A stretch of 64,000 nt of DNA from Chondrilla cf. caribensis. Lineage: Eukaryota; Porifera; Demospongiae; Chondrillida; Chondrillidae. The stretch spans positions 3,612,466 to 3,676,465 of the forward strand of contig OZ026557.1 in assembly GCA_964020155.1 (NCBI GenBank), written 5' to 3'. A program made the translations under genes and the position numbers. The notes below the pieces were generated by a model. That model was not told where the DNA came from and searched no databases. It saw only the letters and a list, made by a program, of their open reading frames with translations. Positions 1-38,376 of the stretch are shown here, in pieces (the first letter of the stretch is position 1; each line of letters opens with the position of its first letter).

Positions 1-3000
1 CAGCTTCCAAAGGTCAAGTTGAATCAGTATGTGAAGTGCTAAGGTCAGGTGGTAGGCCTTCAATGACAGTGGTTGCTGGTACTTACGGGACCCCACTACA
101 TCAAGCTGTAAGAGCAGGTCACAAAGAGATAGTGTCTGTTCTACTGGAGGAAGGTTGTCCAATTGATGTGAAGGCCAGTAATGGTAGAAGTGTCCTCCAC
201 TGGGCTGCTGGGTGTGGTCAGGTTGACTTGATAAAATTATTTGTTAAGAGTGGATTGGATGTAAATGTGGTAGATAATGATGGTTGTACTCCCCTCCATG
301 CTGCAGCTTGTAAGGGTCATGTAGAATGTGTGCATGTATTACTTGCACTAGGTGGTAGACCTTCAATGACAGTGGTTGCTGGTACTTATGGAACCCCACT
401 ACATCAAGCTGTACTAGCTGGTCACAAAACAATAGTGTCTGTTCTATTGGAGGAATGTTGTCCTATTGATCTAAAGGCCAGTAATGGTGAAAGTGTCCTC
501 CACTGTGCTGCTGTGTATGGTCAGGTTGATTTGATTATATTATTTGTTAAGGGTGGATTGGATGTAAATGTGGTAGATAATGATGGTCGGACTCCCCTCC
601 ACTCTGCAGCTAGTAAGGGTCTTGTAGAATGTGTGTGTGCATTGCTTACATTAGGTGGTAGACCTTCAATGACAGTGGTTGCTGGTACTTACGGAACCCC
701 GCTACATCAAGCTGTACTATCTGGTCACAAAAGGGTAGTGTCTGTTCTATTGAAGGAAGGTTGTCCAATTGATGTAAAGAACAGTGATGGTGAAAGTGTC
801 CTCCACTGGGCTGCTGAGTTTGGTCAGGTTGACTTGATAGAATTATTTGTTAAGGGTGTATTGGATGTAAATGTGGTAGATAATGATGGTCGGACTCCCC
901 TTCACGATGCATCTAGTGAAGGTCATGCAGAATGTGTGCGTGTATTGCTTACATTAGGTGGTAGACCTTCAATGACAGTGGTTGCTGGTACTTATGGAAC
1001 CCCACTACATCAAGCTGTACTAGCTGGTCACGAAAAAATAGTGTCTGTTCTATTGAAGGAAGGTTGTCCTATTGATCTAAAGGACAGTAATGGTGAAAGT
1101 GTCCTCCATTGGGCTGCTGAGTTTGGTCAGGTTGACTTGATAAAATTATTTGTTAAGGGTGGATTGGATGTAAATGTGGTAGATAATGATGGTAGGACTC
1201 CCCTCCACTTTGCAGCTAGTCAGGGTCATGTGGAATGTGTGCATATATTGCTTACACTAGGTGGTAGGTCTTCAATGACAGTGGTTGCTGGTACTTATGG
1301 AACCCCACTACATCAAGCTGTACTAGCTGGTCACAAAAAGATAGTGTCTGTTCTATTGAAGGAAGGTTGTCCTATTGATCTGAAGGCCAGTAATGGTGAA
1401 AGTGTCCTTCACTGTGCTGCTGAGTTTGGTCAGGTTGACTTGATTGAATTATTTGTTAAGGGTGGATTGGATGTAAATGTGGTAGATAATGCTGGTAGGA
1501 TTCCACTTCATTATGCAGCTAGTCTGGGTCATGTAGAATGTGTGCGTGTATTGCTTGGATTATATGGTAGATTATCTGTGCTCACTATTACACATGGATC
1601 CCCACTACCTGAAGCTGATGCAGAAGATGAGAATAGGTTGACTCCTTTCCCCTCAGAGCACAAATTGGATGATTGTCCAACAGATTGGACAGTCCTCCAA
1701 TCTAGAAACGTTCTTGATTCAGTTTGCTCAGACCATGTGCAAACCGATAACATCTTGAAGGAAAGTAGTCATGTCAACCATCAATCAGTAAATAATGGGA
1801 TTAGCTCTAACAGTGAATTCCATCCACTAGGCACCAATGTACAGGAAATGGTTAATCACGTTGAGAAGAATGGGATGACACCGTTGATTATGGCGGCTGC
1901 ATTAATAGAGCTAGAAACATTCAAAGAACTTAGATCAGTGGGAGGGGATATTTACCTGTCTGATAACTTTGGTATGAGATTTTGTGATTATGTTCTAATG
2001 AGCCAAGATGACCCCACTGTACTACATCAGTTCTGTGAGGCTTGTGACATTAGTTGTAGTGAAGATGGCATAATTGGTGCCATTTCTGCCTTGAATTCAA
2101 GTGAGCTACTTGATGTAAATAGAGTGTTGTGCCTGGCAGCTGTAGAGGGGGATGTTAGTGTATTTGATGCCATGGTAACATCCCAATATATACTAGATTA
2201 CCAAAGATGGCCAAAAGCAGGTCTTTTGTTGTCAGCTATCTCTGGCAATGAGCAGATATTGACAGACCTGCACATCTCTTCAGAACCACTCAATCCTTTG
2301 CACATTGCTTTACTCTCTACGTACATGCTACAGGGTGAAGAAGGGTATGATCCTACTTTCATAAAGAGGCTGGTCTCTCACCCACGCACTAAATTCACAG
2401 CTAACAAGGTCTTTCCTAATGGTCTGAGTCCACTTGATGTAGCTCGTCAGTTAAAGCTCCACAACATTGCTGATATGATTGAGGGAGCAGGTGGTGGACC
2501 AGGTCTGTGGGCCAACCTACCAAAGGAGATACTACCAGTGTGCACTGATATTTTGGCTGGTGTAAACCAACTTCGAGACCTCCAGTTGGACGAAGTGATC
2601 GTTTCAACAATATCTGCCTACTTCAACTACCAGACTTGTTCTGGGGGAGGAAGACAGAAGGATGAAGAGATTCTGAAGAATGCTATTCTGGAGAAGAAGC
2701 CCGAACTCAGGAGTATTGACAAACATGTTCTCTCCAATCTCAAATGTAAGGGTAAGTGGGAGAGGGTTGGAAATCTCCTAGAGATCGATGAAGACACTTT
2801 GGACAGACTGGGTGAGGAGTCTCCCGACAGTGATGATGCTTACTACTCCATGCTGAAGTACTGGTTGGAACATGGCCACAATGTGACTTGGAAGACCTTA
2901 CTCAATGCTGTTGGCCACTTTGAAACAAAGAAGACTGTTGATGACATGACAGAGAGGATAGTTGAAGAGAACACAGCACCAAATGTAAGGCCAACAGACC

Positions 3001-3774
3001 TTGCATAGCAGTTGAGCTGTGACATATGATGTGTTGATCCTAAAGACACTTAACCTAGTCTTAAATCTCCTTTCATTCTACAGAGCTCATCTTCACAGCA
3101 TTCCCAACTCTGTCCCCCCAGAGGTCATTCACCTTTACCAGTCCCTGCACCCCGGCCTTCCCTGTACCCCCCACCCACTGTACATGGAGTACAGAGTACA
3201 TCACTTGTGGAGTGTACACACCGTGGTACACATCATGGTAGGTTTGTATGGTGCTCCACTCTACTTGTTTAGTTGTGTCAACAGTTCATCTTCTTCAATG
3301 TACGTAGGTGTTCATATTCCAACAGGATGGGCTGATGAAAAGGCTTCATCCAAACCTCTCTCCACCAGACAGAGTCCCACTGTCTCTGTAGACACCCAAC
3401 GTGAGATATGAGGTACTCAATGTGTGGATTGGTGTAGTCCTTACAGTGTGTGTTCTTTGTTTGTAGGTTTCCAGAGGGACCAAAGTCTCACTGAAGAAAA
3501 ACTCTTGCGTCTAGTTGGGAAAAAAATGGACGCCAGATGGGAGGAGTTTGCGGAGCATTTACATGTGGAGTGGAATATGATAAAAGGAGTACGCAGAAAT
3601 TGCCCGTATGATGTAACAGTCTGCTTTATTGAGGTGACCAGTAGATGGCTGTCTGGTGAGGATGGTACTGGTGAGCGTCCCCGTACCTGGGAGACTGTGT
3701 TTGATGCTCTGAGACTCACAGGACACCCTCTTCTTGTGGAGGAGGTCAAAGAAGCACTGTCAAAGGAACAGTGA
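1..3774 (+). CDS. A1: ankyrin-repeat protein with two death domains (5' partial)
   Basis: Exons <3-2984, 3084-3237, 3326-3400 and 3467-3774; all junctions are GT-AG and the phases (0, 1, 1) join without a stop, giving 1172 visible residues. Comparison with A2 shows that 14 codons plus one base are missing before the window. After one N-terminal ankyrin come five 101-aa units (starting at 48, 351, 654, 957, 1260), each three ankyrins. Next is a unique region with degenerate ankyrins (MTPLIMAAA, LNPLHIALL, LSPLDVARQL), then a first death-type domain (about nt 2700-2970; KGKWERVGNLL, MLKYWLEHG, TWKTLL). A Pro-rich linker leads to a second death domain in the last exon (RWEEFAEHL, SRWLSG, TWETVFDAL). 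Family knowledge: ankyrin-death proteins are intracellular scaffolds or sensors; a signalling role here is inference. Exon 2 carries a 12-bp in-frame insertion. The 66-bp third intron has an in-frame TGA, unlike A2-A4. Confidence 0.85.
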
Positions 3775-4120
3775 ACAGGTGAGCACCAACCACTGTTGAA
3801 ATGCCACTACTCGGTGTAGTGTAAGGATAAAGTTGTGAGAGTTTTCTTTTAATGTACATCTTTTTATTGTCCAGTGTGTATGTTGTGCGTTGTTAGTTCC
3901 TCTTTATTTTATAGCAGCCATTAACCTGTGTGTGTATATGACCTCACCACAATTGGATCTGCCTCTTCTGAACTACCCTGATCACAGCCTCCTCCCAGCT
4001 TGTATATAGCCAAGTGATCCGTAATATGATTTCCACCAGAAAAAAATCCAGATCTGAATTTAACCAACACTTCAATCATCACAGATGTCTTCTGACCACA
4101 ACCTTGCTCTCCCTTAATCT
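3775..4120 (+). other. 3' flank/3'UTR of A1
   Basis: No coding potential is seen. Four bases after the stop codon lies a donor-like AACAG|GTGAGC, and a pyrimidine-rich TTTATTTTATAG acceptor-like site follows near 3915. Both are kept in A1, A2, A3 and A4, so a spliced 3'UTR is possible. No AATAAA is seen here. The block ends where the 32-bp minisatellite starts. Confidence 0.4.
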
Positions 4121-5626
4121 TCACCCGAAGCAGCCAGACCATGCCCTTGTTTTCACTCGAAGCAGCCTGAACACACCCTTGTTCTCACCCGAAGCAGCCT
4201 GACCACGCCCTTGTTCTCACTCGAAGCAGCCTGAACACACCCTTGTCCTTGTTGGAAGCAGCCTGGACACACCCTTGCTCTCACCCGAAGCAGCCTGAAC
4301 ACACCCTTGTTCTCACCCAAAGCAGCCTGAATACACTCTTGTTCTCACCCGAAGCAGCCTAAACATACCCTATTTCCCACCAGGAGCAGCCTGACCACAC
4401 CCTTTTTCTCACCCAAAGCAGCCTCAGCACACCCTTGTTCTCTCCAGAAGCAGCCTAAACACACCCTTGTTCTCTCCAGAAGCAGCCTGAAAATGCCCTT
4501 GTTCTCAACAGAAGCAGCCTGAACACACACCTGTTCTCACCCGAAGCAGCCTGACCACACCCTTGTTTTCACTCGTAGCAGCCTGACCACACCCTTTTTC
4601 TCACCCAAAGCAGCCTGAACACACTCTTGTTCTCTCCAGAAGCAGCCTGAACACACCCTTGTTCTCAACAGAAGCAGCCTGAACACACCCTTGTTCTCAC
4701 TTGAAGCAGCCTAAACACACCCTTTTTCCCACCAGGAGCAGCCTGGCCACACCCTTTTTCTCACCCCAAGCAGCCTGAACACACCCTTGTTGTCTCCAGA
4801 AGCAGCCTGACCACACCCTTGTTCTCACCCGAAGCAGCCTGAACACCCTTTTTCTCACCCGAAGCAGCCTGAACACACCTTTATTCTCACCCGAAGCAGC
4901 CTGAACACACCCGTAATCTCACTTGAAGCAGCCTGAACACACCCTTTTTCCCACCAGAAGCAGCCTGAACACACCCTTTTTCTCACCCGATGCAGCCTGA
5001 ACACACTTCTTCTCACCCGAAGCAATTTGACCACACCCTTGTTTTCACTTGTAGCAGCCTGAACACACCCTTGTTCTCACCCGAAGCAGCCTGAACACAC
5101 CCTTGTTCTCTCCAGAGGTAGCCTGAACACACACTTGTTCTTACTTGAAGCAGCCTAAACACACCCTTTTTCCCACCAGGAGCAGCCTGACCACACCCTT
5201 GTTTTCACTTCTAGCAGCCTGAACACACCCTTGTACTCACCCGAAGCAGCCTGAACACACTCTTGTTCTCTCCAGAGGTAGCCTGAACACACCCTTTTTC
5301 TCACCCGAAGCAGCCTGAACACACCCTTGTTCTCACCCGAAGCAGCCTGAACACACCCTTGTTCTCTCCAGAAGCAGCCTGAACACACCCTTGTTCTCTC
5401 CAGAAGCAGCCTGAACACACCCTTGTTCTCACCCGAAGCAGCCTGAACACACCCTTTTTCTCACCTGAAGCAGCCTGAACACACCCTTGTTCTCATCAGA
5501 AGCAGCCTGAACACACTCTTGTTCTCTCCAGAAGCAGCCTGAACACACCCTTTTTCTCACCCGAAGCAGCCTGAACACACCCTTGTCTTGCCAAACGCAG
5601 CCTGACCACACCCTCCTCCCCACCAG
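4121..5626. repeat. 32-bp minisatellite M1
   Basis: Tandem array of a 32-bp unit with core CAGCCTGAACACACCCTTGT followed by TCTC, a variable stretch and GAAG. By length it holds about 47 units. Variation is concentrated in the segment between TTCTC and GAAGCAG (ACCC, CTCC, ACTC, AACA). Because 32 is not a multiple of 3, apparent open frames on the minus strand have a 32-residue period and are an artefact. Confidence 0.95.
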
Positions 5627-7063
5627 AATGACTTCAATGTGAATATGTCTGGACCTGTATTTTACAAATTGTTGGGAAATTGTCTTGAAATTTGCATGAT
5701 GTTGTTGTCCACGCTCTTACATGTGTACATATACAGTGTTATGTTGTTGAACATTAACCAAACTTCAATAGTATAATAGTACACAAATTATATACGTATA
5801 AGAATTATTAATTCAATAATAATTATTATGTTTTTTGAGATTATGTGATAATAAAGATTGTGATAATATTATAGTAAAGTGAATGTGTGTGTGTATGTGT
5901 GTACAATCACTAGTAGTATGAGTGAGTGTGTGAGTGTGCGTGCGTGCTCACGTGCTACCGTACGTGTGTGTGTCACACGCAGCCATTGACTGCATATCAG
6001 GAGATTTCATCCAACCAATACTTGATCCAGTGACACAGATCCTGTGTAATGTCAATATATTATCTCTGCCTTGATTTTGTACGTGGTTAAGACATGGGCA
6101 CGAGGGCATTAAGACATATAAAATACCGAGTCCCGAGGGCGAGTGTATTTTATGTCATATATATTACCATGTGTATGGATCTGCAATATATGCATATCTG
6201 GTTGACTAGTGTTTAATATAATGTTAATCATGGATACCCTCAACTCTAGTATTGAAAACAATTCTAATAATTAGTGGTGTGAATGTGTAATTTTGTTTTA
6301 TTATACAGTTGAGCATAACGATGGTTTATACTCAACCAAATATCTCTGTGTAAGTATACTGAAGCATTTTTGGGTTTGTCAATATATGTAATAGTGTACA
6401 TGTCCCCACATACATCCCTACATGTGTGTTACCACATGTTTTACAACATGTGACACTACATGTACGTGTGTACATACGTATACACAAACACTATGTACAT
6501 GCATTCCTACATACGTAGGTCTCTGCATGTGTTATACCACATGTTACTACATGTGTCCATATGTGTATAACTATATACATGCTGAACTATTATGCATGCT
6601 TCCATGTATTGTAAAACATATGCCTAGTGGTGCTGATTGGTCTCACTGGTAGTGTACACTATATATGTCATGTAGTAAATGTACTGTATAACAACAGTGG
6701 TGCAATCATTATACGTAATATTGAATTGAGAACTCATACTTATGTCAAAATAATTTCAGTTTTGACAAGTTATGAATGAATTTCTGTATTGATGCATACA
6801 CTACAAACTGGAACACACATGCACACACACACAAGACATGCATGTATATGCATACACACACGTATACACACATGCACACATCTGGTGTACTGACCTGCAC
6901 AAGTACAAATTGTGATTGGGTGATTTGACAAGCTCACTTATGTACATACTTAAACAATATTATATATACAGTACGTATGTACAGACATGTATGTATGTAC
7001 GTGTGTGCGTGTGTCTATGAATTTTCTTATCCCTTTGCTATTATGTTTTTACACACACTGCGG
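5627..7063. other. Intergenic spacer between M1 and C1
   Basis: AT-rich non-coding sequence that recurs after every minisatellite (18464-19553, 36313-37396, 50325-51460). It is rich in ACATGT/TACGTA palindromic stretches. The part at about 5930-6300 is shared only with unit 4. An imperfect palindromic insertion (about 6085-6165, TAAAATAC...GTATTTTATG around a CGAGTCCCGAGGGCGAG core) is present here but absent from unit 4. An AATAAA occurs at 5850 but is not conserved between units. Confidence 0.5.
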
Positions 7064-7967
7064 GCTGAAATAGCAGAACTTGAGAAACAGAGGACATCTT
7101 TTCTGGACAAAATGGAGTCTCTTAAGGTTGATGTTGCTTCAGGTGAAAGAGCCAAGCATGTTTCACAGGATCTAGCTGGTCATCTGGAAAAGGAACTCCA
7201 GAAAACCAGAACAAGCTACCAGAAACTCCAAGGAGAGAACTGTGAGCTCAGGGTCAAGTTGGAGGACTCTCACACACGTGAACAGCAACTGGACATGCTG
7301 CTCACCAGCCAGAGGAAGCAGCGTAGCAATCTGGACTCCTCACTTGAAGGCATCCAACCAGCAAAGCCTTGAGGCTCAGATGAGGATACGAGAACTGGAA
7401 GGAAGCCTGAATGAGAGGGAGAGGGACTTTAAGAAGAAGTTTGTGAATTGTGTTCCATCATACATTCATACACACATACATCCGTGCATGCATACATACA
7501 TACATACAGACGTACATACATATGCATGCAGTACATGTAGTGTGGTCTTGAAACAGCCATCAAACATTGTACTGTATTCATATGCATACGTATGTATGCC
7601 AGTACATTTGTACGTACATACGTACGTATATGGTAGACTACGTACTTGCTCATTAGCCTATAGCTACTGTACATCACTCAATCCCCTACACTGTATGTAC
7701 TTATGTACATATGTACTCATACATACGTATGTTGTATAGTTTGTAGAGTATGTGTACGTACGTATGTACATAAGCATGTATCTCCTTGTATTAATGTGTA
7801 CATACATATCCACATACGTATGCAGATTGAATGATATTCAAATGGAGCAGAGCGGAGAGATTGGTCAGAGGTTGACCAAGATGGAGGCCTTACGTAAAGT
7901 GCAGGAAAATGAGTGGATAAGTAAAGAACATGATTACAGGAAGACGATTACTCAACTTGAGACTATA

Positions 7968-8062
<95 letters not shown>

Positions 8063-8576
8063 TGTGTGTGTTTGTTTGTGTGTGTGCATGCATGCGTGTG
8101 TGCGTGCGTTGTGCGTGCATGTGTATGTGTGCGATTACCTTTGACCTTCCATTGCTGATATAATGTGTGTGGTGTGATACAGATTAGCACATACAAATCT
8201 ACATACATACATACATATGTACATACTCCTTCATTCTACATCTCTCCTGCCAATCCAGGTTCACCTGCTTCATGACCAAATACGTGAGGACAAGAAAAAG
8301 AGAGAAGAGTACCTCAAACTAGCCACGAGTTTTGATGGAGAAATCAAACAGATGAGGGACATGATGGACCACTCCGTCCGTCCTGTCTCCTCTGATCACA
8401 GTGAAACTGGTAGAGCTGTGAGTAGGGACCTCCAGCCCCATGGTAGCACCACTGCAGACTACAAGATCAGGTCTCCTCGTACAAGCACACCTTCCAAGAC
8501 CACTTCTTCCAGGTCCTTTCTGCACTTGTCTCCTCACAGGTCACCACTGAGACTCAACAAGACAGAGCAACTTTGA
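7064..8576 (+). pseudogene. C1: 3'-terminal exons of a coiled-coil protein, disabled
   Basis: Three exons (7064-7438, 7826-7969, 8259-8576) encode an alpha-helical, Glu/Lys/Gln-rich coiled coil (AEIAELEKQRTSFLDKME; RIRELEGSLNERERDFKKK) and a Ser/Arg/Pro-rich tail ending KTEQL. Upstream exons with a start codon are not present. Lesions compared with C2 and C3: the acceptor CAG of the first exon is CGG (7061-7063), one extra T at about 7344 shifts the frame into TGA (7370-7372), and two extra bases precede the second donor. The family was not recognised; a centrosomal or ciliary coiled-coil protein is only a guess. The copy should not give a normal product. Confidence 0.75.
7970..8135. repeat. 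(GT)n microsatellite with (GC)n core
   Basis: A run of GT dinucleotides interrupted by CGCGCGCGCGC, then more GT and TGCATGCG variants. It begins at the 5' splice donor of the second C1 exon, so the GT of the donor is the first GT of the repeat. Alternating purine-pyrimidine DNA of this kind can adopt Z-DNA (established knowledge). Confidence 0.95.
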
Positions 8577-10325: not shown

Positions 10326-13300
10326 ATGTCAGAGGGGATAGAGACAATGTGGACTTCTCTTCATTCAGCAGCTTCCGAAGGTCAAGTTGAATCAGTATGT
10401 GAAGTGCTAAGGTCAGGTGGTAGACCTACAATGACAGTGGTTGCTGGTACTTACGGAACCCCACTACATCAAGCTGTAATAGCAGGTCACAAAGAGATAG
10501 TGTCTGTTTTATTGGAGGAAGGTTGTCCAATTGATATAAAGAACAGTAATGGTAGAAGTGTCCTCCACTGGGCTGCTGGGTGTGGTCAGGTTGACTTGAT
10601 GGAATTATTTGTTAAGGGTGGATTGGATGTAAATGTGATAGATAACGATGGTAGGACTCCCCTCCACTATGCAGCTAGTAAGCGTCATGTAGAATGTGTG
10701 CGTGTATTACTTTCTTTAGGTGGTAGACCTTCAATGACAGTGGTTGCTGGTGCTGCCAGAACCCCACTACATCAAGCTGTAAAAGCAGGTCACAAAGAGA
10801 TAGTGTCTATTCTATTGGAGGAAGGTTGTCCAATTGATGTAAAGGACAGTAATGGTAGAAGTGTCCTCCACTGGGCTGCTGAGTATGATCAGGTTGACTT
10901 GATAGAATTATTTGTTAAAGGTGGAATGGATGTAAATGTGGTAGATAATGATGGTAGGACTCCCCTCCACGATGCAGCTAGTAAGGGTCATGTCGAATTT
11001 GTGCGTGTATTGCTTACATTAGGTGGTAGGCCTTCAATGACAGTGGTTGCTGGTACTTACGGAACCCCACTACATCAAGCTGTACTAGCTGGTCACAAAG
11101 AGATAGTGTCTGTTCTATTGGAGGAATATTGCCCAATTGATGTAAAGGACAGTAATGGTAGAAGTGTCCTCCACTGGGCTGCTAGACATGGTCAGGTTGA
11201 CTTGATGGAATTATTTGTTAAGGGTGCATTGGATGTAAATCTGGTAGATAATGCTGTTTGTACTCCCCTCCACGATGCAGCTAGTAAGGGTCATGTAGAA
11301 TGTGTGCTTGTATTGCTTAGGTCAGGTGGTAGTCCTTCACTGACAATGGTTGCTGGTACTGACGGAACCCCACTACATGAAGCTGTAAAAGCAGGTCACT
11401 ACGAGATAGTGTCTGTTCTATTGGAGGAAGGTTGTCCAATTGATGTAAAGGACAGTGATGGTGAAACCATCCTCCACTGGGCTGCTGAGTTTGGTCAAGT
11501 TGACTTGATGGAATTATTTGTTAAGGGTGGATTGGATGTAAATGTGGTAGATAATGAGGGTGGAACTCCCCTCCACTATGCAGCAATTAAGGGTCATGTA
11601 GAATGTGTGCTTGTATTGCTTACATTAGGTGGCAGGTCTTCAATGACAGTGGTTGCTGGTACTTACGGAACCCCACTACATCAAGCTGTACTAGCTGGTC
11701 ACAAAGAGATAGTGTCTGTTCTATTGGAGGAAGGTTGTCCAATTGATGTAAAGGAGAGTAATGGTAGAAGTGTCCTCCACTGGGCTGCTAGGCATGGTCA
11801 GGTTGACTTGATAGAATTATTTGTTAAGGGTGGATTGGATGTAAATGTGGTAGATAATGATGGTAGGATTCCCCTCCACTCTGCAGCTATTGAAGGTCAT
11901 GCAGAATGTGTGCATGTATTACTTACATTAGGTGGTAGTCCTTCAATGACAGTGGTTGCTGGTACTTACGGAACCCCACTACATCAAGCTGTACTAGCTG
12001 GTCACAAAGAGATAGTGTCTGTTCTATTGGAGGAAGGTTGTCCAATTGATGTAAAGGACAGTAATGGTAGAAGTGTCCTCGACTGGGCTGCTTGGTGTGG
12101 TCAGGTTGACTTGATAGAATTATTTGTTAAGGGTGGATTGGATGTAAATGTGGTAGATAATGATGGTAGGACTCCCCTCCACTCTGCAGCTATTGAGGGT
12201 CATGTCGAATGTGTGCGTGCATTGCTTACATTAGGTGGTAGATTATCTGTGCTTGCTAGTACACATGGATCCCCACTACCTGAAGCTGATGCAGAAGATA
12301 GGTTGACTCATTTCCCCTCAGAGCACAAATTGGATGGTTGTCCAACAGATTGGACAGTCCTCCAATCTAGAAACGTTCTTGATTCTTCAGTTTGCTCAGA
12401 CCATGTGCAAACCGATAACATCTCGAAGGAAAGTAGTCATGTAAATAATGGGATTAGCTCTAACAGTGAATTCCATCCACTATGCACCACTGTACAGGAA
12501 ATGGTTAATCAGGTTGAGAAAAATGGAATGACACCATTGATTATGGCGGCTGCAGAAATAGAGCTAGAAACATTCAAAGAACCCAGATCAGTGGGAGGAG
12601 ATATTTACGTGTCTGATAAATTTGGTATGAGATTTTGTGATTATGTTCTAATGAGCCAAGATGACCCCACCGTATTACATCAGTTCTGTGAGGCTTGTGA
12701 CATTAGTTGTAGTGAAGATGGCATAATTGGTGCCATTTCTGCCTTGAACTCAAGTGAGCTACTCGATGTAAATAGAGTGTTGTGCCTGGCAGCTGTAGAG
12801 GGGAATGCTAATGTATTTGATGCCATGGTAACATCCCAATATATACTAGATTACCAAAGAATGCCAAAAGCAGGTCTTATGTTGTCAGCTATCTCTGACA
12901 ATGAGCAGATATTGACAGACCTGCACATCTCTTCAGAACCACTCAATCCTTTGCACATTGCTTTACTCTCTACGTACATGCTACAGGGTGAAGAAGAGTA
13001 TGATCCTACTTTCATAAAGAGGCTGGTCTCTCACCCACGCACTAAATTCACAGCTAATGAGGTCTTTCCTAATGGTCTGAGTCCACTTGACGTAGCTCGT
13101 CAGTTAAAGCTCCACAACATTGCTGATATGATTGAGGGAGCAGGTGGTGGACCAGGTCTGTGGGCCAACCTACCAAAGGAGATACTACCAGTGTGCACTG
13201 GTATTTTGGCTCATGTAAACCAACTTCGAGACCTCCAGTTGGACGAAGTGATCATTTCAAGAATATCTTCCTACTTCAACCACCAGACGTGTTCTGGGGA

Positions 13301-14409
13301 AGGAAGACAGAAGGATGAAGAGAAGAATGCTATTCTGGAGAAGAAGCCGAAGGTCAGTAGTGTTGTCAAACATGTTCTCTCCAATCTCAAGTGTAAGGGT
13401 AAGTGGGAAATGGTTGGAAATCTCCTAGAGATCGATGAAGACACTTTGGACAGACTGGGTGAGGAGTCTCCCGACAGTGATGATGCGTACTACTCCATGC
13501 TGAAGTACTGGTTGAAACATGGCCGCAATGTGACCTGGAAGACCTTACTCGATGTTGTTGGCCACTTTGAAACAAAGAAGACTGTTGATGACATGACAGA
13601 GAGAATAGTTGAAGAGAACACAGCATCAAATGTAAGGCTAACAGACCTTGCATAGCAGTTGAGCTGTGAAATATGATGTACTGATCCTAAAGATACTTAA
13701 CCTAGTCTTAAATCTCCTTTCATTCTACAGAGCTCATCTTCACAGCATTCCCAACTCTGTGCCCTCAGAGGTCAGTCACCTTCACCAGCCCCTCTATCAC
13801 AGCCCTCCCTGTACCCCCCACCCACTGTACGTGGAGTACAGAGTACATCACTTGTGGAGTGTACACATCATGGTAGGTTTGTGTGGTGCTCCACTCCACT
13901 TGTTCAGTTGTGTCAAACGTTCATCTACATCAATGTACGTAGGTGTTCAAATTCCAAAAGGATGTGTTGATACAAAGGCCTCATCCAAACCTCTCTCCAC
14001 CAGACAGAGTCCCACTGTCTCTGTAGACACCCAACGTGAGATACGAGGTACTCAATGTGTGGATTTATGTAGTCCTTACAGTGTGTGTTCCTTGTTTGTA
14101 GGTTTCCAGAGGGACCAAAGTCTCACTGAAGACAGACTCTTACGTCTAGTCGGGAAGAAGATGGATGCCAGATGGGAAGAATTTGCTATCTACGTACATG
14201 TGGAGTGGAATGTGAGGGAAAGAGCAAGCAGAAATTACCCGTCTGATGTAACACTCTGCTTCAATGAGGTGACCAGCAGATGGCTGTCTGGTGAGGATGG
14301 TACTGGTGAGCGTCCCCGTATCTGGGAGACTGTGTTTGATGCTCTGAGAGACACAGTAGGTCCTCGTCTTGTAAAGGAGGTCAAAGAAGCACTGTCAAAG
14401 GAACAGTGA
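10326..14409 (+). CDS. A2: ankyrin-repeat protein with two death domains (complete)
   Basis: Exons 10326-13631, 13731-13872, 13961-14035 and 14102-14409 give 1276 aa in a continuous frame; this is the best intact copy. The start ATG sits in GAAAATGTC directly after a splice acceptor and is matched in A3 and A4. Residues 1-30 hold one ankyrin; 31-636 are six 101-aa units of three ankyrins; about 730-930 are degenerate ankyrins; about 1010-1095 the first death domain (KGKWEMVGNLLEIDEDTLDRL); then a Pro-rich linker from exons 2-3; 1175-1276 the second death domain (RWEEFAIYVHVEWN, SRWLSGEDGTG, WETVFDAL). The exon-3 acceptor is AAAAG instead of AACAG. The 66-bp third intron is open in frame, so its retention would only add 22 residues. 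No signal peptide or membrane segment is seen. A cytoplasmic sensor/adaptor role is inference. Confidence 0.88.
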
Positions 14410-17700: not shown

Positions 17701-18463
17701 GAACACACCCTTGTTCTCATCAGAAGTAGCCTGAACACACCCTTGTTCTCACTCGAAGCAGCCTGAACACACCCTTGTTAATGCCAAAAGCAGCCTGAAC
17801 ACACCCTGTTCTCACCCGAAGCAGCCTGAACACACCCTTGTTCTCAACAGAAGTAGCCTGAACACACCCTTGTTCTCACTCGAAGCAGCCTGAACACACC
17901 CTTGTTCTCACTCGAAGCAGCCTGAACACACCCTTGTTCTCAACAGAAGCAGCCTGAACACACCCTTGTTCTCACTCGAAGCAGCCTGACCACACCCTTG
18001 TTCTCACCCGAAGCAGTCTGAACACACCCTTATTCTCACCCGAAGCAGCCTGAACACACCCTTGTTTTCACTCGAAGCAGCCTGAACACACCCTTGTTCT
18101 CACCCAAAGCAGCCTGGACACACCCTGTTCTCACCCGAAGCAGCCTGAACACACCCTTGTTCTCTCCAGAAGCAGCCTGAACACACCCTTGTTCTCTTCA
18201 GAAGCAGCCTGAACACACCCTTATTCTCACTCGAAGCAGCCTGAACACACCCTTGTTCCTGTCAGAAGCAGCCTGACCACACCCTTGTTCTCTCTCGCCA
18301 GAAGCAGCCTGAACACACCCTGTTCTCACCCGAAGTAGCCTGAACACACCCTTGTTCTCACCTGAAGCGACCTGAACACACCCTTGTTCCCACCAGGAGC
18401 AGACTGACAACACCTTTGTTCTCACCTGAAGCAGCCTGAACACACCCTTGTTCTTGCCAGAAT
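14763..18463. repeat. 32-bp minisatellite M2
   Basis: Same 32-bp unit as M1, about 116 units by length. Rare variant units carrying TTAATGCCAAAAGCAGC recur near 15721, 16035, 16208 and 17769. They mark internal block duplication (15721 and 16208 are 487 bp apart, 15 units plus 7 extra bases). An irregular spacer CCTGAACGTGTGTTCACCC lies near 16058. Confidence 0.95.
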
Positions 18464-19553
18464 GACTTCAATGTGTATATGTCTATAGATCTGTTTTACA
18501 AATTGTTGGGAAATTGTCTTGAAATTTGCATGATGTTGTTGTCCACACCCTTACATGTGTACATATACAGCTAGTGTTTTGTTGTTGAACATTAACCAAA
18601 CTTCAATATTATAATAGTATACAAATTATATAATATTATAAGAATTATTAATACAATAATAATTATGTTTTCTGAGAAGTAATTGTGATAATAATATTAT
18701 TATTATAGTAAAGTGAATGTGTGTGTGTGCGTGTGTGTACGTGTGTTTATTATATATACGGTTGAGCATAAGGATGGTTTATACTCAACCAGATATCTCT
18801 AGCTGTGTAAGTATATACTGTAGCATTTTTGGGTTTGTCAATATATGTAATAGTGTATATGTCACCACATACATCCCTACATGTGTGTTACCACATGTTT
18901 TACAACATGTCACACTACATGTACGTGTGTACATACGTATATGCAAACACTATGTACATGCATTCCTACATACGTAGGTCTCTGCATGTGTTATACCACA
19001 TGTTACTACATGTGTCCATATGTGTATAACTATAATAATTATACATGCTGAACTATTATGTATGCTTCCATGTATTGTAAAACATATGCCTAGTGGTGCT
19101 GATTGGTCTCACTGGTAGTGTATACTATATATGTCATGTAGTGAATGTACTGTATGGTGTGCAGTACAGTGGTGCAATCATTATACGTAATATTGAACTG
19201 AGAACTCATACTTATGTCAAAATAATTTCAGTTTTGACAAGTTATGAATGAATTTCTGTATTAATGCATACACTACAAACTGGAACACACATGCACACAC
19301 ACACAAGACATGCATGTATATGCATACACACACGTATACACATACACACATACACATCTGGTGTACTGACCTGCACAAGTACATTGGGTGATTTGACAAG
19401 CTCACTTATGTACGTACATACACAATATTATGTATACAGTACGTATATGTAATTATTATGTTTATATACAGACATGTACATATGTACGTGTGTACGTACG
19501 TATGTCTATGAATTTTCTTATCCCTTTGCTATTATGTTGTTTACACACTGCAG
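18464..19553. other. Intergenic spacer between M2 and C2
   Basis: Homologous to 5627-7063 but lacks the segment that units 1 and 4 share after the GTGTGTG run (about 5930-6300 and 50617-50990). AT-rich, with ACATGT and TACGTA palindromes; no gene seen. Confidence 0.5.
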
Positions 19554-20410
19554 GCTGAAATAGCAGAACTTGAGAAACAGAGGACATCTTTTCTGAACAA
19601 AATGGAGTCTCTTAAGGTTGATGTTGCTTCAGGCGAAAAAGCCAAGCATGTTTCACAGGGTCTAGCTGGTCATCTGGAAAAGGAACTCCAGAAAACCAAA
19701 ACAAGCTACCAGAAACTCCAAGGAGAGAACTGTGAGCTGAGGGTCAAGTTGGAGGACTCTCACACACGTGAACAGCAACTGGACATGCTGCTCACCAGCC
19801 AGAGGAAGCAGCGTAGCAATCTGAACTCCTCACTGAAGGCATCCAACCAGCAAAACCTGAAGGCTCAGATGAGGATACGAGAACTGGAAGGAAGCTGAAT
19901 GAGAGGGAGAGGGACTTTAAGAAGAAGTTTGTGAATTGTGTTCCATCATACATGCATTCATACCTACGTACATACATATGTATGTACATACATACATGCA
20001 TACATACATAAATACATACCTACATACATACGTACATGCATATGCATGCAGTATATGTAGTGTGGCCAAAATCTATACATATTTCCTATTATATTGAAAC
20101 AGTCATCAAACATTGCAGCCCCCTGCACTATATGTACTTATGTACATCTGCACTCATATGTACGTATTTTGTATAGCTCATAGAGTATTTGTTCAGAACC
20201 ACGTACGTATGTACATAAGCATGTATCTCCTTGTATTAATGTGCACATACATATCCACATACATATGCAGATTGAATGATATTCAAATGGAGCAGAGTGG
20301 AGAGATCGGTCAGAGGTTGACCAAGATGGAGGCCTTACGTAAAGTGCAGGAAAATGAGTGGATAAGTAAAGAACATGATTACAGGAAGAAGATTACTCAA
20401 CTTGAGACTA

Positions 20411-20481
<71 letters not shown>

Positions 20482-20993
20482 GACTGAGTGTGTATAGATG
20501 TGTACATATGTATGTGTGTGTGCGTGAGTGTGTGCAGGTGGGCATGCGTGTGCGTGTGCATGTGTGTGTGTGATTACCTTTGATCTTCCATTGCTGATGT
20601 AATGTGCGTGGTGTCGCACATATGTATATACATACGTACATACTCCTTCATACTACATCTCTCCTGCCAATCCAGGTTCACCTGCTTCATGACCAAATAT
20701 GTGAGGACAAGAAAAAGAGAGAAGAGTACCTCAAACTAGCCACAAGTTTTGATGGAGAAATCAAACAGATGAGGGACATGATGGACCACTCCATCCGTCC
20801 TGTCTCCTCTGATCACAGTGAAACTGGTAGAGCTGTGAGTAGGGACCTCCAGCCCCATGGTAGCATCACTGCAGACTACAAGATCAGGTCTCCTCGTACA
20901 AGCACACCTTCCAAGACCACTTCTTCCAGGTCCTTTCTGCACTTGTCTCCTCACAGGTCACCACTGAGACTCAACAAGACAGAGCAACTTTGA
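19554..20993 (+). pseudogene. C2: 3'-terminal exons of the coiled-coil gene, frameshifted
   Basis: Exons 19554-19926, 20271-20412 and 20676-20993, with intact acceptors (CTGCAG, TATGCAG, AATCCAG). The first exon is one base shorter than the 374 bp expected from C3: GGAAGCTGAATG replaces GGAAGCCTGAATG at about 19894, and TGA follows at 19896-19898. The intact exon lengths (374, 142) give phases 2 and 0, which fit a FKKK-LNDIQMEQ junction. The tail (VHLLHDQIC...) is open to its own stop. Start-containing exons are absent, as in the other copies. Confidence 0.75.
20413..20480. repeat. (GT)n microsatellite at C2 donor
   Basis: About 34 GT dinucleotides start exactly at the donor ACTAAG|GT of the second C2 exon. 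GTGTGCG/TGTGCATG variants continue to about 20570. Confidence 0.95.
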
Positions 20994-23128: not shown

Positions 23129-26100
23129 ATGCCAAGGGAGATGGAGGCAATGTGGACTCCTCTTCATTCAGCAGCTTCCGAAGGTCAAGTTGAATCAGTA
23201 TGTGAAGTGCTAAGGTCAGGTGGTAGGCCTTCAATGACAGTGATTGTAGGTACTTCTGGAACCCCACTACATCAAGCTGTAAAAGCAGGTCACAAAGAGA
23301 TAGTGTCTGTTCTATTGGAGGAAGGTTGTCCAATTGATGTAAAGGACAGTGATGGTAGAAGTGTCCTCCACTGGGCTGCTGAGTGTGGTCAGGTTGACTT
23401 GATGGAATTATTTGTTGAGGATGGATTGGATGTAAATGTGGTAGATAATGCTTGTAGGACTCCCCTCCACTATGCAGCTCGTGAGGGTCATGTAGAATGT
23501 GTGCGTGTATTGCTTACATTAGGTGGTAGACCTTCAATGACAATGGTTGCTGGTGCTGCCGGAACCCCACTACATCAAGCTGTACTAGCTGGTCACAAAG
23601 AGATAGTGTCTGTTCTATTGGAGGAAGGTTGTCCAATTGATGTAAAGAACAGTAATGGTGGAAGTGTCCTCCACTGGGCTGCTATGTATGGTCAGGTTGA
23701 TTTGATAGAATTATTTGTTAAAGGTGGATTGGATGTAAATGTGGTAGATAATGCTGGTCAGACTCCCCTCCACTTTGTAGCTAATAGGGGTCATGTAGAA
23801 TGTGTGCGTTTATTGTTTTCATTAGGTGGTAGACCTTCAATGACAGTGGTTGCTGGTACTTACGGAACCCCACTATACCAAGCTGTACTTGTAGGTCACA
23901 AAGAGATAGTATCTGTTTTATTGGAGGAAGGTTGTCCAATTGATGTAAAGGACAGTGATGGTGAAAGTGTCCTCCACTGGGCTGCTTGGTGTGGTCAGGT
24001 TGACCTGATGGAATTATTTGTTAAAGGTGGATTGGATGTAAATGTGGTAAATAATGATGGTTGTACTCCCCTTCACTATGCAGCTAGTGAGGGTCATGTA
24101 GAATATGTGCGTGCATTGCTTACATTAGGTGGTAGACTTTCAATGACAGTTGTTGCTGGTACTTACGGAACCCCACTACATCAAGCTGTACTAGCTGGTC
24201 ACAAAGAGATAGTGTCTATTCTATTGGAGGAAGGTTGTCCAATTGATGTAAAGGACAGTAATGGTGGAAGTGTCCTCCACTGGACTGCTGGGTGTGGTCA
24301 GGTTGACTTGATAGAATTATTTGTTAAAGGTGGATTGGATGTAAATGTGGTAGATAATGCTGGTCAGACTCCCCTCCACTTTGTAGCTAATAGGGGTCAT
24401 GTAGAATGTGTGCGTTTATTGTTTTCATTAGGTGGTAGACCTTCAATGACAGTGGTTGCTGGTACTTACGGAACCCCATTACATCAAGCTGTACTGGTAG
24501 GTCACTACAAGATAGTATCTGTTCTATTGGAGGAAGGTTGTCCAATTGATGTAAAGGACAGTAATGGTGGAAGTGTCCTCCACTGGGCTACTAGGTATGG
24601 TCAGGTTGACTTGATGGAATTATTTGTTAAGAATGGATTGGATGTAAATGTGGTAGATAATGATGGTTGGACTCCCCTCCACTCTGCAGCTAGTGAAGGT
24701 CATGTAGAAAGTGTGCATGTATTGCTTACATTAGGTGGTAGACCTTCAATGACAGTGGTTGCTGGTACCTACGGAACCCCACTACATCAAGCTGTACAAG
24801 CTGGTCACAAAGGGATAGTGTCTATTCTATTGGAGGAAGGTTGTCCAATTGATGTAAAGAACAGTAGTGGTAGAAGTGTCCTCCACTGGGCTGCTGCGTT
24901 TGGTCAGGTTGACTTGATGGAAATATTTGTTAAAAGTAGATTGGATGTAAATGTGGTAGATAATAATGGTTGTACTCCCCTCCACTCTGCAGCTAGTAAG
25001 GGTCATGTCGAATGTGTGCGTGCATTGCTTACATTAGGTGGTAGACTTTCAATGACAGTGGTTGCTGGTACTTACGGAACCCCACTACATCAGGCTGTAC
25101 TAGCTGGTCACAAAGAGATAGTGTCTATTCTATTGGAGGAAGGTTGTCCAATTGATGTAAAGAACAGTAATGGTAGAAGTGTCCTCCATTGGGCTGCTAG
25201 GTATGGTCAGGTTGACTTGATAGAATTATTTGTTAAGGGTGGATTGGATGTAAATGTGGTAGATAATGATGGTTGTACTCCCCTCCACTCTGCAGCTAGT
25301 CAGGGTCATGTCGAATGTGTGCGTGCATTGCTTACATTAGGTGGTAGACTTTCAATGACAGTGGTTGCTGGTACTTACGGAACCCCACTACATCGAGCTG
25401 TACAAGCTGGTCACAAAGGGATAGTGTCTATTCTATTGGAGGAAGGTTGTCCAATTGATGTAAAGAACAGTAGTGGTAGAAGTGTCCTCCACTGTGCTGC
25501 TGCGTTTGGTCAGGTTGACTTGATGGAAATATTTGTTAAAAGTAGATTGGATGTAAATGTGGTAGATAATAATGGTTGTACTCCCCTCCACTCTGCAGCT
25601 AGTAAGGGTCATGTCGAATGTGTGCGTGCATTGCTTACATTAGGTGGTAGACTTTCAATGACAGTGGTTGCTGGTACTTACGGAACCCCACTACATCAGG
25701 CTGTACTAGCTGGTCACAAAGAGATAGTGTCTATTCTATTGGAGGAAGGTTGTCCAATTGATGTAAAGAACAGTAATGGTAGAAGTGTCCTCCATTGGGC
25801 TGCTAGGTATGGTCAGGTTGACTTGATAGAATTATTTGTTAAGGGTGGATTGGATGTAAATGTGGTAGATAATGATGGTTGTACTCCCCTCCACTCTGCA
25901 GCTAGTCAGGGTCATGTCGAATGTGTGCGTGCATTGCTTACATTAGGTGGTAGACTTTCAATGACAGTGGTTGCTGGTACTTACGGAACCCCACTACATC
26001 GAGCTGTACAAGCTGGTCACAAAGGGATAGTGTCTATTCTATTGGAGGAAGGTTGTCCAATTGATGTAAAGAACAGTAGTGGTAGAAGTGTCCTCCACTG

Positions 26101-29100
26101 TGCTGCTGCGTTTGGTCAGGTTGACTTGATGGAAATATTTGTTAAAAGTGGATTGGATGTAAATGTGTTAGATAATGATGGTCGGACTCCCCTCCACTCT
26201 GCAGCTAGTAAGGGTCATGTAGAATGTGTGCGTGTATTGCTTACATTAGGTGGTAGACCTTCAATGACAATGGTTGCTGGTACTTACGGAACCCCACTAC
26301 ATGAAGCTGTACTAGCTGGTCACAAAGAGATAGTGTCTGTTCTATTGGAGGAAGGTTGTCCAATTGATGTAAAGGACAGTGATGGTAGAAGTGTCCTCCA
26401 CTGGGCTGCTAGGTATGGTCAGGTTGACTTGATGGAATTATTTGTTAAGGGTGGATTGGATGTAAATGTGGTAGATAATGATGGTTGTATTCCCCTCCAC
26501 TTTGCAGCTAGTAAGGGTCATGTACATTGTGTGCGTGTATTGCTTACATTAGGTGGTAGACCTTCAATGACAGTGGTTGCTAGTACCTACGGAACCCCAC
26601 TATATCAAGCTGTACAAGCTGGTCACAAAGGGATAGTGTCTGTTCTATTGGAGGAAGGTTGTCCAATTGATGTAAGGGTGAGTAATGGTGGAAGTGTCCT
26701 CCACTGTGCTGCTGTATTTGGTCAGGTTGACTTGATAGAATTATTTGTTAAAGGTGGATTGGATGTAAATGTGGTAGATAATGCTGGTCAGACTCCCCTC
26801 CACTTTGTAGCTAATAGGGGTCATGTAGAATGTGTGCGTTTATTGCTTACATTAGGTGGTAGACCTTCAATGACAGTGGTTGCTGGTAATTATGGAACCC
26901 CACTACATCAAGCTACACAAGCAGGTCACAAAGAGATAGTATCTGTTCTATTGGAGGAAGGTTGTCCAATTGATGTAAAGGACAGTAATGGTGAAAGTGT
27001 CCTCCACTGGGCTGCTGGGTGTGGTCAGGTTGACTTGATAGAATTATTTGTTAAGGGTGGATTGGATGTAAATGTGGTAGATAATGATGGTCGGACTCCC
27101 CTCCACTCTGCAGCTAGTGATGGTCATGTAGAATGTGTGCGTGTATTGCTTACATTAGGTGGTAGACCTTCAATGACAATGGTTGCTGGTACTTACGGAA
27201 CCCCACTACATCGAGCTGTAAGAGCACGTCACTACGAGATAGTGTCTGTTCTATTGGAGGAAGGTTGTCCAAATGATGTAAAGGACAGTAATGGTAGAAG
27301 TGTCCTCCACTGGGCTGCTGGGTATGGTCAGGTTGACTTGATGGAATTATTTGTTAAGGGTGGATTGGATGTAAATGTGGTAGATAATGATGGTTGTACT
27401 CCCCTTCACTATGCAGCTAGGCAGGGTCATGTAGAATATGTGCGTGCATTGCTTACATTAGGTGGTAGACTTTCAATGACAGTTGTTGCTGGTACTTACG
27501 GAACCCCACTACATCGAGCTGTAAGAGCACGTCACTACGAGATAGTGTCTGTTCTATTGAAGGAAGGTTGTCCAATTGATGTAAAGGACAGTAATGGTAG
27601 AAGTGTCCTCCACTGGGCTGCTATGTATGGTCAGGTTGACTTGATAGAATTATTTGTTAAGGGTGGATTGGATGTAAATGTGGTAGATAATGATGGTTGG
27701 ACTCCCCTCCACTATGCAGCAAATAAGGGTCACATCAAATGTGTGCATGAATTGCTTACATTAGGTGGTAGTCCTTCAATGGCAGTGGTTGTTGGTACTT
27801 ACGGAACCCCACTACATCAAGCTATAAGAGCAGGTCACAAAGAGATAGTGTCTATTCTATTGGAGGAAGGTTGTCCGATTGATGTAAAGGACAGTAATGG
27901 TGGAAGTGTCCTCCACTGTGCTGCTGAGCATGGTCAGGTTGACTTGATGACATTATGTGTTAAGGGTGGATTGGATGTAAATGTGTTAGATAATGATGGT
28001 CGGACTCCCCTCCACTCTGCAGCTAGTAAGGGTCATGTAGAATGTGTGCGTATATTGCTTACATTAGGTGGTAGTCCTTCAATGACAGTGGTTGCTGGTA
28101 CTTACGGAACCCCACTACATGAAGCTGTAAGAGCAGGTCACTACGAGATAGTGTCTGTTCTATTGGAGGAAGGTTGTCCAAATGATGTAAAGAACAGTAA
28201 TGGTAGAAGTGTCCTCCACTGTGCTGCTGCGTTTGGTCAGGTTGACTTGATAGAATTATTTGTTAAGGGTGGATTGAATGTAAATGTGGTAGATGATGAT
28301 GGTTGGACTCCTCTCCACTCTGCAGCTAGTCAGGGTCATGTAGAATGTTTGTGTGCATTGCTTACATTAGGTGGTTATCCTTCAATGACAGTGGTAGCTG
28401 GTACTTACGGAACCCCACTACATGAAGCTGTAAGAGCAGGTCACAAAGAGATAGTGTCTATTCTATTGGAGGAAAGTTGTCCAATTGATGTAAAGAACAG
28501 TAATGGTAGAAGTGTCCTCCACTGGGCTGCTGGGTGTGGACAGGTTGACTTGATAGAATTATTTGTTAAAAGTGGATTGGATGTAAATATGGCAGATAAT
28601 GATGGTCGGACTCCCCTCCACTCTGCAGCTAGTAAGGGTCATGTAGAATGTGTGCGTGTATTGCTTACATTAGGTGGTAGTCCTTCAATGACAGTGGTTG
28701 CTGGTACTTACGGAACCCCACTACATGAAGCTGTAAGAGCAGGTCACAAAGAGATAGTGTCTGTTCTATTGGAGGAAGGTTGTCCAAATGATGTAAAGAA
28801 CAGTAATGGTAGAAGTGTCCTCCACTGGGCTGCTGCGTTTGGTCAGGTTGACTTGATAGAATTATTTGTTAAGGGTGGATTGAATGTAAATGTGGTAGAT
28901 GATGATGGTTGGACTCCTCTCCACTCTGCAGCTAGTAAGGGTCATGTAGAATGTTTGTGTGCATTGCTTACATTAGGTGGTTATCCTTCAGTGACAATGG
29001 TTGCTGGTACTTACGGAACCCCACTACATCAAGCTGTTGGAGCAGGTCACAAAGAGATAGTGTCTGTTCTATTGGAGGAAGGTTGTCCAATTGATGTAAA

Positions 29101-31118
29101 GGACAGTAATGGTAGAAGTGTCCTCCACTGGGCTGCTGGGTGTGGTCAGTTTGACTTGATGGAATTATTTGTTAATGGTGGATTGGGTGTAAATGTGGTA
29201 GATAACAATGGTTGGACTCCCCTCCACTTTGCAGCTAGTAAGGGTCATGTAGAATGTGTGCGTGTATTGCTTACATTAGGTGGTAGACCTTCAATGACAA
29301 TGATTGCTGGTACTTACGGAACCCCACTACATCAAGCTGTAAAAGCAGGTCACAAAGAGATAGTGTCTGTTCTATTGGAGGAAGGTTGTCCAATTGATGT
29401 AAAGAACAGTAATGGTAGAAGTGTCCTCTACTGGGCTGCTGGGTGTGGTCAGGTTGACTTGATAGAATTATTTGTTAAGTGTGGATTGGATGTAAATGTG
29501 TTAGATAATGATGGTTGTACTCCCCTCCACTCTGCAGCTAGGCAGGGTCATGTCGAATGTGTGCGTGTATTGCTTACATTAGGTGGTAGACTTTCAATGA
29601 CAGTGGTTGCTGGTACTTACGGAACCCCACTACATCAAGCTGCACTAGCTGGACACAAAGAGATAGTGTCTGTTCTATTGGAGAAAGGTTGTCTGATTGA
29701 TGTAAAGGACAGTTATAGTAGTAGTGTCCTCCACTGGGCTGCTGAGGGTGGTCAGGTTGACTTGATGGAATTATTTGTTAAGTGTGGATTGGATGTAAAT
29801 GTGTTAGATAATGATGGTTGTACTCCCCTCCACTATGCAGCTAGTGAGGGTCATGTAGAATGTGTGCGTGTATTGCTTACATTAGGTGGTAGACCTTCAA
29901 TGACAATGGTTGCTGGTACTTACGGAACCCCACTACATCGAGCTGTAAGAGCACGTCACTACGAGATAGTGTCTGTTCTATTGGAGGAAGGTTGTCCAAT
30001 TGATGTAAAGGACAGTAATGGTAGAAGTGTCCTCCACTGGGCTGCTGGGTATGGTCAGATTGACTTGTTGGAATTATTTGTTAAGGGTGAATTGGATGTA
30101 AATGTGGTGGATAACAATGGTTGGACTCCCCTCCACTTTGCAGCTAGTAAGGGGCATGTAGAATGTGTGCATGTATTGCTTATATTAGGTGGTAGTCCTT
30201 CAATGACAGTAGTTGCTGGTACTTACGGAACCCCACTACATCAAGCTGTACTAGCTGGACACAAAGAGATAGTGTCTGTTCTATTGAAGGAAGGTTGTCC
30301 AATTGATGTAAAGGACAGCAATGGTGTGAAGTGTGGTGACATGACAGAGAGGATAGTCGAAGAGAATACAGTGTCAAATGTAAGGCCAGCAGTAGAGCTG
30401 TGAAATGTGATGTGCTGATATAGATACTTAACTATTTTTATATTTTCTTTCATTCTACAGAATTCATCTTCACAATATTTACAACTCAGAGGTCAGTCAC
30501 CTTTACCAGCCCCTGTATCACAGCCCTCCCTGTACCCCCCACCCACTGTACATGGAGTACAGAATACATCACTTGTGGAGTGTGCACATCATGGTAGGTT
30601 TGTATGGTGTTCCACTCTACTTGTTCAGTTGTCTCAACAGTTCTTCTCCATTAATTCGTGTTTCAACAGGACGTGTTGATACAAAGACCTCATCCAAACC
30701 TCTCTCCACTAGACAGAGTCCCACTGTCTCTGTAGACACCCAACGTGAGATACGAGGTACTCAATGTGTGGATTGGTGTAGTCCTCACAGTGTGTGTTCC
30801 TTGTTTGTAGGTTTCCAGAGGGACCAAAGTCTCACTGAAGAAAAACTCTTGCGTCTAGTTGGGAAAAAAATGGACGCCAGATGGGAAGAGTTTGCTATCT
30901 ACTTACATGTGGAGTGGAATGTGAGGGAAAGAGCAAGCAGAAATTGCCCGTCTGATGTAACACTCTGCTTCATTGAGGTGACCAGCAGATGGCTGTCTGG
31001 TGAGGATGGTACTGGTGAGCGTCCCCGTACCTGGGAGACCGTGTTTGATGCTCTGAGAGAGACAGTAGGTCCTCGTCTTGTGGATGAGGTCAAAGAAGCA
31101 CTGTCAAAGGAACAGTGA
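23129..31118 (+). CDS. A3: giant ankyrin-repeat protein with one death domain
   Basis: Exons 23129-30379, 30461-30593, 30670-30744 and 30811-31118 give 2588 aa in frame. The 7251-bp first exon has no intron and encodes one ankyrin, then 23 complete 101-aa three-ankyrin units (23219-30187) and a partial 24th, about 71 ankyrins in total. After CPIDVKDSNG it jumps to GDMTERIVEEN, so the unique region, degenerate ankyrins and first death domain present in A1, A2 and A4 are deleted in frame. The second death domain remains (RWEEFAIYLHVEWN, SRWLSGEDGTG, TWETVFDAL). Introns are 81, 76 and 66 bp. Units starting at 25037+25340 and 25643+25946 are nearly identical 606-bp dimers, a recent duplication. 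An intact frame through 7 kb of repeats argues for a functional protein; the ligand is unknown. Confidence 0.85.

Positions 31119-38306: not shown

Positions 38307-38376
<70 letters not shown>

Follow-up and report, generated by a model that had tools for sequence, protein, structure and literature searches.

The window analysed here is a 64,000-nucleotide stretch of the sponge Chondrilla cf. caribensis (contig OZ026557.1, our contig C12, 3.61-3.68 Mb; the genome has 137 Mb, 37 contigs and introns). It contains a row of four tandem genes, g1-g4, that carry ankyrin arrays with a 303-bp period. We found 5, 6, 23 and 4 complete 101-aa units in these genes. The 38 units counted in a first-pass annotation of the sequence are thereby confirmed, but the span it gave for the four genes, 48..30340, leaves out the fourth (44356 on). 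The features of the genes, all on the plus strand, are as follows.

3..3008 (+): g1, open frame with the ankyrin array (5 units, 75-1589) and a first death domain (DD1); the start of the gene falls shortly before the window
47..1571 (+): g1 tandem array, 303-bp period, 5.0 copies, 90% match
2490..2975 (+): g1 conserved GGGPG segment and DD1, matched by Pfam Death and used for substitution ratios
3469..3771 (+): g1 exon with a second, death-like domain (DD2), with copies in all four genes and three loci of cluster C12b (see below)
10326..13655 (+): g2, which combines a six-unit ankyrin array with DD1
10415..12242 (+): g2 tandem array, 303-bp period, 6.0 copies, 90% match
13143..13622 (+): g2 GGGPG segment and DD1, Pfam Death E 1.7e-6, covered by an AlphaFold2 model
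14104..14406 (+): g2 DD2 exon
23129..30403 (+): g3, 23 complete units; the DD1 region is gone through an in-frame deletion near the frame end
23218..30334 (+): g3 tandem array, 303-bp period, 23.5 copies, 91% match, holding a recent two-unit duplication (u7 = u9)
30813..31115 (+): g3 DD2, with donors at 30380, 30594 and 30757, exon starts at 30461, 30670 and 30811, and phases that fit by eye
44356..46368 (+): g4 frame holding the array of 4 units; 19 additional bases at 46340-46358 shift this frame
44445..45664 (+): g4 tandem array, 303-bp period, 4.0 copies, 88% match
46295..47128 (+): second g4 frame, downstream, encoding the conserved segment together with DD1 (46616-47095)
47573..47875 (+): g4 DD2 exon

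In all four genes an AAY|GTAAG donor closes the array exon, and TTCTACAG with a TTTGTAG acceptor lies downstream of this donor. No signal peptide was evident by eye, g2-g4 begin directly with an ankyrin cap, and the putative receptors are apparently cytosolic. The 19 extra bases of g4 contain, by eye, an inverted copy of adjacent bases, as template switching leaves.

Each 101-aa unit consists of three ankyrin repeats of 33, 33 and 35 aa (R1, R2 and R3). The genes g1-g4 match Pfam Ank_2 with E values of 6e-98 or better, indicating that they encode ankyrin repeat proteins, and the best Protein Data Bank (PDB) matches of the g2 array are a designed ankyrin repeat protein (DARPin) and ankyrin-1. 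In DARPin numbering, we defined positions 5, 10, 13 and 14 as the inner (concave) face and positions 17, 18, 21, 22, 25 and 26 as the outer face. The classic randomised positions of DARPins, which we take to be 2, 3, 5, 13, 14 and 33, do not include position 10. When variability in the window is averaged over R1-R3, positions 13, 14, 10 and 5 head the 33 positions; among single columns, R2-13, R1-13, R2-14, R3-5, R3-14 and R3-10 vary most. The first-pass annotation had described variation at such positions and likened it to DARPins. Its list missed R1-13. Position 10 lies outside the classic set, and positions 2, 3 and 33 taken together are not raised in the window, where their nonsynonymous diversity (piN) is 0.96 of the unit-wide synonymous diversity (piS). 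Some variable window columns fall elsewhere (R3-21, R3-22, R2-1 and R2-20).

The set {5,10,13,14} ranks first of 40,920 four-position sets in the window, a rank that is circular because the set was read off the window itself. We then investigated three comparison clusters of the same genome, C3 (111 units from 13 loci), C12b and C1, none of which was used to choose positions. The same set ranks 8th in C3, 41st in C12b and 109th in C1, and the classic DARPin set ranks 98 in C3 and 2,538 in the window among 1,107,568 six-position sets. We used only gap-free unit matches of at least about 85 positions, and a filter against units with less than 60% identity to the family consensus removed 21/132 units of C3 and 4/19 of C1.

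The mean pairwise difference between units is 0.57 on the inner and 0.24 on the outer face in the window, and 0.49 versus 0.10 in C3. Among the 111 C3 units, 96 different 12-residue strings occur on the inner face and 35 different strings on the outer; in the window, string counting fails to tell the two faces apart (37 inner versus 35 outer among 38 units). Inner variation exceeds outer variation in 17 of the 18 own-genome loci having at least four units, or in 16 of 18 with the DARPin set. A control with the 13 repeats of human ankyrin-1 gave almost no bias (0.87 inner versus 0.83 outer), this being one protein compared at the amino-acid level only, with highly diverged repeats. A protein search returned 5,884 matches among 7,976 scored candidates, of which the best 120 were used. 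Eight were set aside as belonging to the same genome (exact match to fetched frames), and 9 of the remaining 112 had fewer than four units. In all 103 others the inner face varies more than the outer (median ratio 1.51), although these may include proteins from unfetched loci of the same genome and several share one source. Their 13 most variable columns all lie at positions 3, 4, 5, 10, 13 or 14.

We then counted changes on unit trees (P values are one-sided and uncorrected). The ratio of nonsynonymous to synonymous rates (dN/dS) at the DARPin positions of C3 is 3.26 with a tree from the other codons and 2.59 with a tree per repeat (P 9e-17 and 2.5e-8). At positions 5, 10, 13 and 14 it is 1.67 and 1.48 under the two tree schemes (P 5e-5 and 0.011), with 0.35-0.41 on the outer face and 0.31-0.35 in the framework. 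Relative to unit-wide piS, piN at positions 5, 10, 13 and 14 of C3 is 2.06 (1.89-2.26), compared with 0.36 on the outer face and 0.30 in the framework. The corresponding window values are 3.01 (2.56-3.59), 1.22 and 0.42, the intervals coming from 300 unit resamples in which relatedness remains. The window ratio drops to 1.38 when scaled to synonymous change at the same codons. In C1, dN/dS is 1.4-2.1 and not significant (P 0.05-0.18). The tree counts give 1.3-1.8 for the window (P 0.014-0.073) and 0.72-0.84 for C12b. One dN/dS run used a stricter unit filter, which kept 85/132 units of C3, 17/22 of C12b, 11/19 of C1 and 38/38 of the window; C12b came out at 0.61-0.70 in this run. A within/between-consensus ratio test was not used, since consensus differences are saturated and so uninformative. 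The tests point strongly to positive selection in C3 and suggest it in the window, but they do not show it in C12b or C1. The earlier proposal of selection for variety thus stands clearly for C3, modestly for the window and not for C12b, and both position ranks and dN/dS bear out its placement of the diversity on the concave face, not on the outer face or in the framework.

Linkage disequilibrium (LD, measured as r2) within the 303-bp unit decays with distance in all four unit sets, and none of 500 position permutations was equally extreme. Between sites 3-20 bp apart and sites more than 120 bp apart, r2 drops from 0.113 to 0.031 in the window and from 0.097 to 0.014 in C3. In g3, units u7 and u9 are identical and u6 and u8 are three bases apart, indicating a recent two-unit duplication. 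Units u2, u4 and u12 have the second half in common (1-3 differences) but not the first, and u14, u15 and u23 the first half (2-4 differences) but not the second. The LD decay and the mosaic units indicate that units recombine, in agreement with the shuffling that had been proposed from the letters of the window. Since the predicted binding positions lie in both unit halves, half-unit exchange yields new combinations of them.

We then investigated the region behind the arrays, where a predicted death domain follows in most genes examined. The DD1 segment matches Pfam Death (PF00531) in all eight segments of an alignment, and scans of whole frames place this match above the gathering score in g1, g2 and locus L023 and just below it in g4. 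A PDB sequence search with the DD1 segment gave no match. The ratio of nonsynonymous to synonymous differences per site (pN/pS) is 0.46-0.61 for the conserved segment with DD1 among g1, g2 and g4, and 0.65 for the part before it (g1 versus g2). The region after the array was modelled as a stack of short helices; the AlphaFold2 C-terminal model of g2 is almost all helical, with a mean predicted local distance difference test score (pLDDT) of 79, below 50 in the first 71 residues and confident in the last hundred. The best 50 of 1,032 Foldseek matches to this model belong to ankyrin-type proteins or to RNase L, itself a protein with ankyrin repeats. The lowest E value is 5.6e-4, TM-scores relative to the query are about 0.2, and no death domain fold is among these 50. 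DD2 forms the last exon of every window gene and recurs in three C12b loci, where the copies are 88-96% identical to their closest window counterparts. No DD2 turned up in the remaining fetched loci, for which little downstream sequence is included. Compared with DD1 by hhalign, DD2 gave E 0.016 and a probability of 2.8%, and its low-confidence model (pLDDT 56) has a best fold match at E 2.3. Neither NACHT, NB-ARC, leucine-rich repeats (LRR) nor TRADD-N had a Pfam match in the six proteins scanned (g1, g2, g3, g4, L023 and L027).

A search of the same genome with the C-terminal region gave 40 match rows, representing at least 39 distinct loci, 26 of them at 45-100% identity and 13 at 28-35%. 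The gene g3, which lacks the query region, adds one family locus, and all these locus counts are lower bounds. Of the match rows, 36/40 are stop-free, and open frames reach 3,199 aa. Eight distant C-terminal relatives (28-31% identity) form a regular tandem cluster on C5 (707077-747720), with frames of 969-972 aa in six cases.

We favour, with a probability of about 60%, the reading that this is a family of recombining, diversified recognition receptors in which the concave face is under selection and the output passes through a death domain. Of this reading, the analysis itself shows where the variation lies, the contrast in dN/dS (clear in C3), recombination between units and the death domain. 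The stacked 101-aa units would form a long, rigid ankyrin solenoid. Selection would diversify its concave residues, while the framework, and in C3 also the outer face, stays constant. Unequal exchange and gene conversion may duplicate, delete and recombine units and half-units, creating new combinations of binding residues. A ligand on the array would gather molecules, and the C-terminal death domain or domains would nucleate a signalling complex; the clustering and signalling half of this mechanism is based on the general behaviour of death domains. We infer an immune or recognition function in which ligand binding, clustering and signalling may serve to recognise non-self, with a microbe, a symbiont, another individual or else an endogenous protein as candidate ligand. 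A more ambitious version is possible but doubtful. The genes would then form an animal system free of the nucleotide-binding oligomerization domain (NOD), in which recombining arrays give each individual its own binding-face repertoire, wired to cell-death signalling, for pathogen or symbiont sensing or for sponge self/non-self discrimination, possibly with units turning over so quickly that even siblings would differ.

Several observations weigh against the recognition receptor reading. In the window, dN/dS at concave codons is just 1.3-1.8 (P 0.009-0.073), partly because synonymous diversity at those codons is above average (0.22 versus 0.10), and the outer face reaches 1.0-1.3. C12b shows no excess at concave codons (0.61-0.87), and in its locus L010, the exception noted above, the outer face varies more than the inner; C1 contributes few units, and its framework is close to 1.2. 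All these P values are a guide only, because unit changes are not independent and tree counts ignore recombination. On the output side, whole-frame Pfam Death was found neither in g3 nor in the C1 protein L027 (E limit 0.01 for L027). The first-pass annotation supposed a constant death-domain output. It is not constant across the four genes, because g3 lost DD1 in frame while keeping DD2, and the 19 bases that g4 has in excess of g1 and g2 break its frame ahead of the C-terminal part with DD1. DD2 itself is weakly death-like (Pfam Death in 3/7 copies, best E 0.0031, below the cut-off), and six DD2 pairs have pN/pS values of 0.32-1.13, two of them above 1.

Alternatively, the diversity might reflect relaxed constraint after repeat duplication, with weak purifying selection letting tolerant surface positions change most and with no recognition role. 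Fast relaxed divergence of paralogous repeats has been described as general (PMC5120217), and both the overall piN/piS of the window units (1.03) and the dN/dS of C12b (0.72-0.93 over all site classes examined, tree counts) fit this explanation. Relaxation cannot, however, give ratios above 1, such as the 2.6-3.3 at the DARPin positions of C3 beside 0.3-0.4 on the outer face and in the framework. The outer face is as variable as the inner in human ankyrin-1, yet nearly fixed in C3. For C3, relaxed constraint alone is ruled out by dN/dS above 1 together with a constrained outer face, with some help from the ankyrin-1 control; for the family as a whole we consider it unlikely. A targeted mutation mechanism that makes particular codons hypervariable, without selection, would fit the somewhat raised third-position diversity that the window and C3 show at concave codons of R2 and R3 (0.16-0.18, compared with 0.06-0.11 for flanking codons). 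At the first and second positions of these codons, though, the increase is far larger (0.36-0.38), while flanking codons are quiet, and two of the most variable codons (R2-14 and R3-10) have no synonymous change at all. Mutation targeting is very unlikely.

The arrays could also be multi-partner scaffolds, or take part in an internal arms race, binding fast-changing endogenous partners (cell proteins or mobile-element products), much as the zinc fingers of PRDM9 follow their DNA targets, with the death domain as an assembly module and no alarm. A mean dN/dS of 2.7 is given for human PRDM9 repeats among themselves (PMC5120217), and a sequence pattern alone cannot separate external from internal ligands. 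The death domain and the many loci fit alarm receptors better, and we regard internal partners as unlikely.

A 32-bp minisatellite lies 3' of each window gene (4121-5614, 14765-18454, 31468-36304 and 48235-50323), and all 19 genome occurrences of its exact 28-base core fall inside these four stretches. It might be a mark of, or a stimulus for, the exchange through which the gene blocks are copied. Similar frames that look like coiled coils by eye lie between the genes (6929-8576, 19512-20993 and 37256-38919); the two that were scanned had no Pfam match above the cut-off. Since these frames recur between the genes, the tandem-duplicated unit is a block of roughly 10-21 kb, exceeding the receptor gene. 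Beside g4, at 42617-43821, two overlapping frames match the DUF3504/QRICH1 and phage-integrase models of Pfam, suggesting a gene of the tyrosine-recombinase type split over two frames. Collagen-type frames with a common C-terminal sequence adjoin the cluster at 52073-52786 (minus strand), 61582-61839 and 63440-64000; the first, the only one of the three scanned, matches Pfam Collagen.

Sponges and other animals have Death/TRADD-N proteins with ankyrin C-termini. In Amphimedon they form a large lineage-specific expansion, for which direct recognition of invaders has been proposed (PMC8195603). These proteins share a death-like domain and ankyrin repeats with the window genes, but their death-like unit sits at the N-terminus, coupled to TRADD-N, whereas the window genes have N-terminal arrays and C-terminal death domains. 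In the sponge Aplysina aerophoba, two genes, one with ankyrin repeats and the other with a death domain, went up in response to microbial elicitors (PMC6208332); they may or may not belong to this family. We found no report of animal ankyrin arrays under diversifying selection by title or abstract start in the open-licence literature. The window genes would give specific candidate genes for sponge immunity or allorecognition.

The zinc fingers of PRDM9 combine a focus on contact residues with recombination and track DNA targets. Like the window units, they are tandem units of one protein that are positively selected among themselves (PMC5120217), but they bind DNA and belong to one gene, whereas the window genes form a family with a predicted protein-binding solenoid. 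The DARPins resemble the window genes in their fixed framework and in variation at positions such as 3, 5, 13 and 14, and the residues varied by evolution largely match those that protein engineers chose. DARPins bind through their concave side (PMC8229355). Unlike DARPins, the window genes are natural, vary at position 10 as well, vary little at positions 2 and 33 and have three unequal repeats per unit; if the favoured reading is true, they would be a natural source of self-compatible ankyrin binders.

The nearest precedent, and the system that the sponge genes would work most like, is the fungal ANK and WD NOD-like receptors. In Podospora, the ANK/TPR repeats of such receptors are polymorphic in number and positively selected on their concave side (PMC4986451), and WD repeats show high internal identity, exchange and selection at the interaction face (PMC2873952). 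The sponge genes share near-identical repeats, unit exchange, interaction-face selection (clear in C3) and an attached signalling domain with the fungal ANK/TPR/WD receptors. Within the one sponge assembly, unit number varies from one window paralogue to the next (5, 6, 23 and 4). The fungal receptors have a NOD (NACHT or NB-ARC) and fungal effector domains; the sponge genes are built from 101-aa blocks of three repeats, would use a death domain as output and belong to an animal. Animal NOD-like receptors combine NACHT with LRR, neither of which was matched in the six sponge proteins scanned. Because the NOD is absent from these Pfam scans, the sponge genes are not members of the fungal NOD-like receptor family. 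Antibodies, lamprey variable lymphocyte receptors and fungal NOD-like receptors all vary a binding face on a fixed scaffold. If our reading is true, the sponge genes would be a natural ankyrin counterpart of these systems in an animal.

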